A DNA stretch of 60,972 nt from Henriciella sp. GTDB taxonomy: Bacteria > Pseudomonadota > Alphaproteobacteria > Caulobacterales > Hyphomonadaceae. The stretch covers positions 1 to 60,972 of the forward strand of contig JALUWJ010000118.1 of assembly GCA_027019605.1 (NCBI GenBank). Direction: 5' to 3'. Both the position numbers and the translations under genes were made by a program. Below the pieces are notes generated by a model. It had not been told where the DNA came from and made no database searches. It worked only from the letters and a program-made list of their open reading frames with translations. This document shows, in pieces, positions 28,944-36,886 of the stretch (positions are counted from its first letter, which is position 1; each line of letters starts with the position of its first letter).

Positions 28944-29897
28944 TTACGCTGCGTCGAGGAGCAAAACTGCAAAGAAATCACGCGGGTCGCGCCAATTTTC
29001 GCGCAGGGTCCATCCAGTCGGCGCGATCACATCGACGAGTCGCGTTAGATCGAATTTACGCGAATTCTCCGTATGGATCGTCTCATCTTGAGCAAAGGCA
29101 ATGCTTTGCGTGCCAATCGTAACGGTTTGCGACTTGAGACTGCGCAGGTGCATCTCAATTCGCGAGTCCTCGTCATTCCAGATCGCTTCGTGCTGAAACG
29201 CGTCGAGATCGAAATTCGCCCCAAGATCGTGATTGATCCGCCGCAGGAGATTCAAATTGAACGCCGCGGTGACGCCTTGGGCATCATCATAGGCTGGCAT
29301 GAGGATATCCGGCGACTTACGCAGATCGACACCAATGATGAATTTGCTTTGCGGGCCGAGCAGGCGGCGCGCGGCGCGCAGAAACTGATCAATCTCACCG
29401 TCGCTCAAATTACCAATGGTTGAGCCTGGAAAGAAACCGACCGGTGTGCCGTCAATATGATCAGGCAGGCCCAACTCGACCATGAAGTCGGCCGCGATCG
29501 GATGAACGGCGAGATCCGGGTATTCTAACTTCAGGGCGTCAGCGGTTTGAAGCAGGAAGTCTTCGGAGACATCAATTGGCACATACCCCGCGGGATCAAC
29601 CAATGCGTCCAAGAGTATTCGGGTTTTCGTCGACGCGCCGGCGCCATATTCAACCAGGAGCGCGCGCGGCCCGAGCGCATCGGCCATTGCCGTGGCATGG
29701 CGGGTCAGAATTCCGATTTCCGTTCGGGTAGGATAATATTCTGGAAGCTCGGTAATCTGCTCAAACAGGTTCGATCCGGCTTCGTCATAGAAATATTGGC
29801 AGGGCAGGGTCTTTTGCGTCTGGGCGAGGCCGGTGAGGACATCTTGCAGGAACCGGTCTGTCTGAGACGCGGCATGTGGTTCGAAAGCGTCGTCCAT
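28944..29897 (-). CDS. egtD: L-histidine N-alpha-methyltransferase (ergothioneine synthesis)
   Basis: Trimethylates histidine to hercynine with three SAM, the first step of ergothioneine synthesis. The protein is 317 aa, matching the family. It shows YFYDEAGSNLFEQITELPEY (about 39-58), the SAM-site motif VEYGAGASTKTRILLDAL, PIDVSEDFL and FFPGSTIGNL. It lies 2 bases after egtB on the same strand, so the two form an operon. The gamma-glutamylcysteine steps EgtA/EgtC are absent nearby, as in many proteobacteria. Confidence 0.96.
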   Translation of the reverse strand: MDDAFEPHAASQTDRFLQDVLTGLAQTQKTLPCQYFYDEAGSNLFEQITELPEYYPTRTEIGILTRHATAMADALGPRALLVEYGAGASTKTRILLDALVDPAGYVPIDVSEDFLLQTADALKLEYPDLAVHPIAADFMVELGLPDHIDGTPVGFFPGSTIGNLSDGEIDQFLRAARRLLGPQSKFIIGVDLRKSPDILMPAYDDAQGVTAAFNLNLLRRINHDLGANFDLDAFQHEAIWNDEDSRIEMHLRSLKSQTVTIGTQSIAFAQDETIHTENSRKFDLTRLVDVIAPTGWTLRENWRDPRDFFAVLLLDAA

Positions 29898-35797: not shown

Positions 35798-35841
35798 TTG
35801 ACGTTTGAGGCGGCTTGCCTATTCTGGAACATCTTGGCAAC
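35798..35841 (+). promoter_or_regulatory. mmcB promoter with LexA-like box
   Basis: A -35 TTGACG (35798-35803) and a -10 TATTCT (35820-35825) are separated by 16 bases. Immediately after lies GAAC-N7-CAAC (35827-35841), one mismatch from the alphaproteobacterial LexA operator GAAC-N7-GAAC. mmcB is a known SOS gene in Caulobacter, and operator overlap with the promoter is the usual design. Confidence 0.6.
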
Positions 35842-35857: not shown

Positions 35858-36289
35858 ATGGAAGCAGAAATGATCAGCCCCGGCGCCGCGGAAATATCCC
35901 GAGGGGTTTTGCGGCTCATGAATGATCATGGCTATGCTGGTGTCACCGAAATGACCTTGGCCAATGGTCGCCGCGCGGACGTGGCTGCGATCGGACCGGG
36001 TGGCGAGATCACGATTGTTGAGATCAAGTCTTCCGTCGCGGATTTTCGAAGCGATCAGAAATGGCCGGAATACCGCCCGTTCTGCGATCGGTTTTACTTT
36101 GCGGTGGGCCAGGATTTTCCGCACGATCTGATCCCGGAAGAGACCGGCTTGATCATCGCCGATGCATTTGGCGGCGCGGTAATCCGCGAAGCTGTCTGCG
36201 AGAAATTGGTTGCGGCGCGGCGCAAAGCCGTGACGCTTCGCTTCGCCCGTCTGGCGGCAACACGCCTGTGTCACCCTGTCATTGCGTGA
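35858..36289 (+). CDS. mmcB: MmcB-family DNA repair protein
   Basis: A 143 aa protein of the MmcB family, linked in Caulobacter to mitomycin C resistance. The start at 35858 has GCGAGG upstream; an extension to 35792 would run through the promoter. The core looks like a PD-(D/E)xK nuclease fold: NGRRADVAAIGP supplies an Asp and ITIVEIKSSVADF supplies the ExK pair, followed by DQKWPEYRPFCDRFYFAVG. It has a predicted LexA-controlled promoter and is followed after 45 bases by an unrecognised protein with a clamp-binding motif. Confidence 0.88.
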   Translation: MEAEMISPGAAEISRGVLRLMNDHGYAGVTEMTLANGRRADVAAIGPGGEITIVEIKSSVADFRSDQKWPEYRPFCDRFYFAVGQDFPHDLIPEETGLIIADAFGGAVIREAVCEKLVAARRKAVTLRFARLAATRLCHPVIA

Positions 36290-36334
36290 GATCGCCTATG
36301 GACTCTTTGAGAATGAAAACCTAGCTGCGCGGTC

Positions 36335-36772
36335 ATGAGTCACGCTTATCCCCTCGGCAAGACCGCTCGCGATGCACTGAAAAATGCGCAAATGGCGGCG
36401 CGTACCCGCTATGAAGCGGAAGATTTAGCCGACGGCGCGGCGATCGCGGCGCTGGAAACGGAATGGCTTACGCCGAGCGCCAAGGACTTGCCGAAAATCC
36501 TTGAGCAGGCGGACGCAAATCCGGGTCACGGTTTTATCCAGAACTATGAGGATGCAGCCGGCAAAACTGTGCTGGCAGTGACCTATTGGAAGCTCGCAAA
36601 GGCCGCGAAAAAGCCAAAACCGAAGCCGGCACCTCCGAAAGACAGCGCGCCGGCTGAGGAAGATCACACCGATGATCTCTATTTCAAATCCGGCCGAACC
36701 AAAAAGAGCCGACGCAAGAAATTCGTCGACCCTAATCAGCTAGATTTGTTTGGTGGTCCGAAAGAGGACTAA
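36335..36772 (+). CDS. Unrecognised protein with C-terminal sliding-clamp motif QLDLF
   Basis: A 145 aa protein of no family that I recognise. The N-terminal about 90 residues are mostly helical (GKTARDALKNAQMAARTRYE, then a domain ending TYWKLAKAAKK). A flexible Lys/Pro/Ala-rich linker follows (KPKPKPAPPKD). The C-terminal tail has the basic patch KKSRRKKF and then the pentapeptide QLDLF at 135-139, which exactly fits the consensus QL(S/D)LF for binding the DNA polymerase beta clamp. Placement behind mmcB suggests a DNA repair or replication accessory protein. That role is inference. Confidence 0.75.
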   Translation: MSHAYPLGKTARDALKNAQMAARTRYEAEDLADGAAIAALETEWLTPSAKDLPKILEQADANPGHGFIQNYEDAAGKTVLAVTYWKLAKAAKKPKPKPAPPKDSAPAEEDHTDDLYFKSGRTKKSRRKKFVDPNQLDLFGGPKED

Positions 36773-36790: not shown

Positions 36791-36886
36791 CTCACCCTGA
36801 GCGAAGTCGAAGGAAAAGCACCGGGTTGAAGCGCCTCGTCCTTCGACCCTGGGCCTACGCCAGGGCAGGCCTTCGCTCAGGATGAG
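36791..36886. repeat. REP-like nested palindromic element
   Basis: Outer arms CTCACCCTGAGCGAAG (36791-36806) and CTTCGCTCAGGATGAG (36871-36886) are inverted repeats with one mismatch. Inner arms TCGAAGGA and TCCTTCGA pair inside them, and CCCTGG/CCAGGG forms a further hairpin. It lies between two convergent genes, the usual site of dispersed palindromic elements. The CCTGAGCGAAG core is a common intergenic repeat in many proteobacteria. It may also terminate both transcripts. Confidence 0.8.

Follow-up and report, generated by a model that had tools for sequence, protein, structure and literature searches.

A small conserved protein of Hyphomonadaceae with a putative sliding-clamp docking peptide, encoded beside mmcB

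Clients of the bacterial sliding clamp DnaN (the beta clamp) include polymerases, repair proteins and transposases, and the clamp consensus is also found in the form QL[SD]LF. SocB of Caulobacter crescentus is a DnaN-binding toxin that acts as a clamp-binding inhibitor. An excerpt of PMC4549789 gives the bacterial consensus as QLxLF, often C-terminal, and states that the alphaproteobacterium Acidiphilium fits it less well than E. coli does. A part of PMC3836487 reports that Caulobacter HdaA requires the hexapeptide QFKLPL for its interaction with DnaN. MmcB is described in excerpts of PMC9578287 as an SOS-regulated endonuclease of the PD-(D/E)XK family which protects Caulobacter from mitomycin C, and which is hypothesised to work with translesion polymerases in crosslink repair; the same excerpts give the Caulobacter SOS box as GTTC-N7-GTTC (GAAC-N7-GAAC on the other strand).

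Here we describe a gene next to mmcB in a 60,972-nt stretch of DNA from Henriciella sp. (the window, meaning the whole stretch that was analysed), whose 145-aa product is, judged from its sequence, probably a new clamp-binding genome-maintenance factor. Like the known clients, it carries a consensus pentapeptide, family-wide, in a predicted disordered C-terminal tail; unlike them, it has no polymerase, repair, transposase or other named domain above cut-off. It resembles HdaA in being a proposed non-polymerase clamp user from a related alphaproteobacterium, and its relatives in sister families carry a similar class of six-residue motif, but HdaA belongs to the AAA+ proteins and has its motif at the N-terminus, whereas the 145-aa protein matches no AAA+ family and has its pentapeptide at the C-terminus. 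The likeness to SocB, by description alone, is that of a proposed small DnaN binder, and contrasts with the presence of the window gene in 36 of the 37 family genomes. MmcB (PF06319), encoded immediately upstream behind a conserved LexA box, is a possible partner and not a homologue, and DUF7302 and PHROG 748 show a weak likeness over residues 72-112, which span the last strand and the linker. A literature search by topic, the protein having no name, returned nothing that evidently describes it.

The gene and its product

The window gene is an open reading frame on the forward strand, preceded by mmcB, with the following features:

35827..35841, + strand: LexA-like box of mmcB, GAACATCTTGGCAAC, one mismatch from GAAC-N7-GAAC
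35858..36289, + strand: mmcB, PD-(D/E)xK-like, PF06319 (Pfam match)
36299..36326, + strand: promoter-like element TGGACT...CCTAGCT (CTAGC recurs in loci of the genus)
36335..36772, + strand: 145-aa uncharacterised protein, putative DnaN-binding accessory factor (open reading frame and translation; homologue in 36/37 genomes of the family)
36335..36598, + strand: N-terminal small alpha/beta domain, residues 1-88 (AlphaFold2 model)
36662..36685, + strand: DHTDDLYF, second conserved short motif, residues 110-117 (column entropy)
36686..36727, + strand: basic patch, residues 118-131 (sequence; more variable, at 1.84 bits, than the two flanking motifs)
36737..36751, + strand: QLDLF, putative sliding-clamp docking peptide, residues 135-139 (homologue tails)

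The product consists of a compact part (residues 1-88), a Lys/Pro/Ala linker, the DHTDDLYF motif, the basic patch and the end DPNQLDLFGGPKED, with GRTKKSRRKK and a Lys/Pro-rich linker preceding QLDLF. A preliminary description, made from the letters of the window, had given a length of 145 aa, QLDLF at residues 135-139 after a basic patch and a Lys/Pro linker, and a start 45 bases past mmcB; the reading frame bears out all of these, the mmcB stop lying 45 nt upstream of the gene. The protein is 94% identical to one from a Henriciella metagenome-assembled genome (Henriciella being a genus of Hyphomonadaceae). Below, f1 denotes Hyphomonadaceae, the family of the window, and f2-f5 denote other families of the same order.

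The protein is so far undescribed, and no Pfam or NCBIfam model matches it above cut-off. NCBIfam has no family for the 145-aa protein, and the best Pfam candidate, DUF7302 (PF23976), was rejected at 16 bits against a cut-off of 24.9. When 36 homologues were searched against Pfam, DUF7302 appeared in five at E values up to 1 (best E 0.0031), and single members had other weak matches. The best PHROGs match is phrog_748, a head-tail connector (E 0.0016, residues 72-112), in a collection which has no curated cut-off; the DUF7302 and PHROG 748 matches are taken as chance, though this is not proven. A set of seven sequences, comprising sister-family relatives and two divergent homologues, gave no Pfam family for any member (0/7) and NCBIfam matches far under cut-off for three.

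The AlphaFold2 model of the 145-aa protein is of moderate confidence (mean pLDDT 70). In this model, built from eight sequences, the N-terminal domain has block pLDDT values of 78-87 and its secondary-structure elements run E H H E H E E, while the tail (residues 121-145) has values of 44-55 and no secondary structure, so that QLDLF is predicted to lie in a disordered segment. Comparison of the model with the PDB gave a best E value of 0.07 by Foldseek and a best Z of 3.7 by VIA-align (rmsd 3.8 over 60 residues), and comparison with a viral structure library a best E value of 0.06; none of these is a usable fold match for the N-terminal domain. In searches of PDB sequences by profile, the best E value was 2.5 for f1 and 0.05 for f2, the latter to a major capsid protein over residues 1-72. 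No catalytic family was found for the 145-aa protein in the Pfam, NCBIfam and PDB sequence searches. A mobile origin was also considered and rejected, the protein having no match in plasmids, phages or viral contigs.

Conservation of the C-terminal pentapeptide

QLDLF fits the client pattern Q-[LM]-x-[LM]-F. It is the only Q[LM][DS]LF pentapeptide across the six frames of the window, and this pattern arose with a frequency of 9e-5 in 100,000 shuffles of the 145-aa protein. By our own estimate, a lone QLDLF in a proteome is unremarkable, and therefore its conservation is the deciding evidence.

Searches with the single sequence found a homologue in 36/37 f1 genomes and none in 24 genomes of four other families. 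Tails were read at 52 f1 loci, or 49 distinct ones after removal of three loci with identical tails (L057, L062 and L067), and all 49 have Q[LMFI][DE][LM]F at the same position. The forms are QMDLF (27), QLDLF (19) and one each of QFDLF, QIEMF and QLELF, so that Q[LM]DLF accounts for 46/49. The preliminary description had named homologues without the pentapeptide as what would count against clamp binding, and no distinct homologue among the 49 lacks it. The homologue in G063 (L077, G063:C15:133251-133656), found as two pieces and outside the 52 loci, has its N-terminal part and its NLYFRSGRTKPRRKRYIDPRQMDLF end in different frames, so that either the gene is broken or the sequence contains an error.

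The five positions of the pentapeptide are encoded in f1 by 2, 9, 4, 6 and 2 different codons, respectively. Since the codons vary while the letters stay, selection acts on the peptide, and its flanks drift among f1 homologues while the pentapeptide stays. In an alignment of 36 homologues (A1, which leaves out L030), the columns of DPxQxDLF have a mean entropy of 0.37 bits and those of DHTDDLYF one of 0.32 bits; the means are higher in the N-terminal domain (1.33), the basic stretch (1.84) and the linker (2.49), and past the motif (2.44). The conservation of QLDLF is beyond chance. The substitutions seen (L, M, F or I at position 2, D or E at position 3, L or M at position 4) should be tolerable for the clamp pocket, and docking to DnaN through QLDLF is the leading reading of the peptide and a likely one, on the strength of its letters and their conservation.

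DHTDDLYF (36662-36685) is as strictly conserved in f1 as the clamp-like motif. It is missing from the sister-family relatives that were read and from L042, and may be a second docking motif.

Y-family polymerases served as a control for local clamp usage. Among 21 loci in ten genomes, the clamp pattern was found in three (L228, L232 and L234), in each case internal and unconvincing, and L214 ends in NNQLSFPF, outside the control pattern. The control is weak, since length or a loose pattern served to choose its reading frames and the frame taken at L224 was a wrong, short one, and with canonical patterns in just 3/21 loci, local clamp usage is uncalibrated.

A profile of the f1 homologues gave weak matches in f2 and f3. 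The f3 relatives (∼230 aa) contain two copies of the N-terminal domain, with 17 full-length matches in 150 genomes of the order; the f2 relatives (∼190 aa) occur in eight genomes and in G058 of f3, and one relative was found in f5. Profile-profile comparison of f1 with f2 (probability 97.0) covers the N-terminal 67 residues only, that of f1 with f3 (97.6) extends to the tail, and that of f3 with f2 gives 98.8. All 27 distinct tails from outside f1 have Q-x5-GLF, of which 21 have Q..L.[ILVMF]GLF and the other six have Met or Pro in place of Leu. The 145-aa protein has the pentapeptide form and not the HdaA-type hexapeptide (QxxLx[LI]); because Q..L.[LI] resembles the clamp-motif class of HdaA, f1 and the sister families may share a single docking site that takes two forms, as far as sequence comparison can suggest. 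Long-form f1 proteins continue past QMDLF with NPNxxLTDEEGDG and f3 proteins continue past GLF with ENPNVVLVTEEGDG, a type of tail that is not present in the 145-aa protein. The tandem arrangement is seen in the f3 relatives at L071 (1751-2440) and L075 (1499-2182), where copies of the N-terminal domain are followed by the Q-x5-GLF tail.

In 289 genomes of the class, some of them from the order, the f1 profile matched only the window genome and one other f1 genome. One match of the tandem-domain profile (E 4.7e-4) and two of the f2 profile (E 5.1e-4 and 6.3e-4) contain internal stops and were not counted, and no convincing member was found outside the order among these sampled genomes.

Neighbourhood and regulation

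The window mmcB matches PF06319 with an E value of 4.8e-55, and a same-strand mmcB lies upstream of the gene in 36/37 f1 loci. These counts leave out L031-L036, judged from contig position and identity to be the same places as L002, L003, L005, L007, L008 and L010. The distance between the two genes ranges from a 4-nt overlap (two loci) to 513 nt and is at most 21 nt in ten of the 37 loci (46 nt in L022, 21 nt in L042). In G030, the exception, mmcB lies ∼290 kb from the gene. The sole f1 genome that lacks the gene, G029 (97% complete, in 520 contigs), also gave no match for mmcB. In f2, mmcB is within 4 kb of the relative in four of eight genomes, and in f3 the tandem-domain relative is near mmcB in none of eight comparable genomes, seven of which have the two on separate contigs. 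The link to mmcB, which the preliminary description had proposed as a check, is thus strong in f1 and partial in f2, and none was seen in f3.

It is possible, with a chance that we place somewhat short of even, that this linkage is passive, reflecting an old chromosomal neighbourhood of the gene, a zincin-type peptidase gene and mmcB that involves no functional coupling; such a history would be compatible with clamp docking. Other neighbours are kept too: over the 37 f1 loci, some of which are too short to show them, genes that we take to be msrB and DUF2312 were found in 29 and 28, respectively. An upstream hydrolase gene was found in two of these loci. The zincin gene lies within 2 kb of the gene in 3/13 f1 genomes searched, and follows the relative in 7/8 f2 genomes. 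In most loci of the window's genus the gene has a promoter-like element of its own (described below), which also fits passive linkage. Against it, the gaps of at most 21 nt in ten loci, with an overlap in two, suggest co-transcription, and the pair of mmcB and the gene outlasts msrB and DUF2312, neither of which was found in five divergent loci that retain the pair (L037, L039 and L041-L043).

The zincin-type peptidase gene (PF06262) recurrently adjoins mmcB in several families of the order (seen at L149-L152), and is divergent from it in G031, G033, G034, G043, G085 and G092.

The idea that MmcB has a clamp motif of its own where the small gene is missing was not supported. A motif of the type Q..[LM][FW] was found in none of 20 MmcB reading frames outside f1 (from 92 genomes with PF06319), and a clamp-type motif in none of the listed reading frames downstream of non-f1 mmcB. 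Among 36 f1 MmcB frames, one has a hexapeptide-like string (QGVLRL, L015) and none the pentapeptide. When 35 loci of mmcB or zincin genes were searched with a profile of the sister-family relatives, no member was found, the best E value being 0.23.

The LexA box upstream of mmcB is exact in 30/36 f1 loci and within one mismatch in 34/36, compared with shuffle expectations of 0.17 and 3.84 loci, respectively, which were computed before the mmcB start in L022 was corrected; it is exact in L022 and not found in L023 and L042. No exact LexA box was found within 200 bp upstream of the gene itself in the 37 f1 loci. Of 29 loci of the window's genus, 23 have the sequence CTAGC no more than 35 bp ahead of the ATG. 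The window is one of them, its element TGGACT...CCTAGCT ending 8 nt before the ATG. It is present in 23/25 genus loci with a gap of at least 41 nt, including those with mmcB 161-513 nt away, and in 0/4 genus loci with a gap of 7-9 nt. Judged against the alphaproteobacterial promoter consensus, it looks like an own, near-leaderless promoter. The element is missing from all ten tiny-gap loci (four in the window's genus and six in others), which look like tight mmcB operons, and its absence there is consistent with transcription from an mmcB operon. With an element of its own and no LexA box at the window gene, SOS control of that gene would therefore be indirect at most; SOS coupling is plausible in the ten tiny-gap loci and loosened in the window. 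Of the regulation suggested in the preliminary description, the LexA-like box at the mmcB promoter is real and common to the family, while the claim that the gene itself is SOS-linked holds for the neighbour's box and is weakened by the separate CTAGC element and the missing box at the window gene.

A proposed role at the clamp

The 145-aa protein is best regarded as an accessory factor, and not as an enzyme or a selfish gene, because it is small and has no named domain above cut-off, because it has no phage, plasmid or viral match, is present in 36/37 f1 genomes and has a conserved docking tail, and because its alpha/beta N-terminal domain, of moderate confidence, has no fold match. We consider it reasonably probable that it is a clamp-docked adaptor or access regulator at forks. 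The gene is chromosomal and apparently vertically inherited, and its product would be an accessory protein of DNA replication or repair. The disordered C-terminal tail would put QLDLF into the pocket where DnaN takes up such peptides, the basic patch ahead of it may contact DNA beside the clamp, and the N-terminal domain, with or without the DDLYF motif, would bind a further protein, the most plausible candidates being MmcB or another factor at damaged or stalled forks. A link to the clamp would make sense in crosslink repair with translesion polymerases, the process in which MmcB is hypothesised to act. The protein would thus be an adaptor or clamp-access regulator and not an enzyme. We infer the DnaN binding, the DNA contact and the identity of the partner, and the partnership with MmcB is a guess. 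Weighing against this role are the out-of-frame motif of G063, the missing mmcB link in G030 and in the tandem-domain relatives, the restriction of the f1-f2 profile match to 67 N-terminal residues, the moderate confidence of the model, the few clamp patterns in the polymerase control, and the weak PHROG match, which points to a head-tail connector instead.

A more specific form of this proposal is speculative, and we regard it as rather improbable: that this undescribed family of the order is a dedicated adaptor which tethers the SOS nuclease MmcB to DnaN, allowing crosslinks or stalled forks to be cut at the replisome, and that its docking peptide has switched between the six-residue and the pentapeptide classes.

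Alternatively, the protein could be a clamp competitor or brake similar to SocB, which occupies the DnaN pocket and limits access of polymerases or HdaA but brings no nuclease. Its small size, the lack of a catalytic family and the single strong pentapeptide would suit such a brake. So would the fact that, in most loci of the window's genus, the gene has its own promoter-like element and no LexA box, and the location of the tandem-domain relatives away from mmcB. However, its occurrence with the same neighbour in 36/37 f1 genomes suggests a maintenance role, and no toxin-antitoxin arrangement is apparent among the neighbours that were read. We hold the brake to be unlikely.

The pentapeptide could also serve some partner other than DnaN (MmcB itself, for instance, or a segregation factor or protease adaptor), its likeness to the clamp motif being coincidental; DHTDDLYF and DPxQxDLF are conserved alike, so that the tail could form one longer interface, and two features exceed the minimal consensus, namely a Pro that never varies, two residues ahead of Gln, and an Asp that hardly varies at position 3, but the letters fit the clamp consensus, the tail is predicted to be disordered and the substitutions are those expected of the clamp pocket, which makes coincidence quite unlikely.

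A clamp-like peptide in a conserved neighbour offers a directly testable route by which MmcB could be brought to lesions. If the binding is true, an unnamed family joins the DnaN interactome of Caulobacter relatives; if there is no binding, the family shows that a short motif can be conserved and resemble the clamp consensus for other reasons, which is a useful caution for motif-based annotation.

Just past the gene (36791-36886), inverted copies of TTCGCTCAGGRTGAG flank an intergenic stretch. A third match, with two mismatches, lies at 29082, giving three in the window where 0.23 would be expected, and the sequence looks like a palindromic intergenic repeat.
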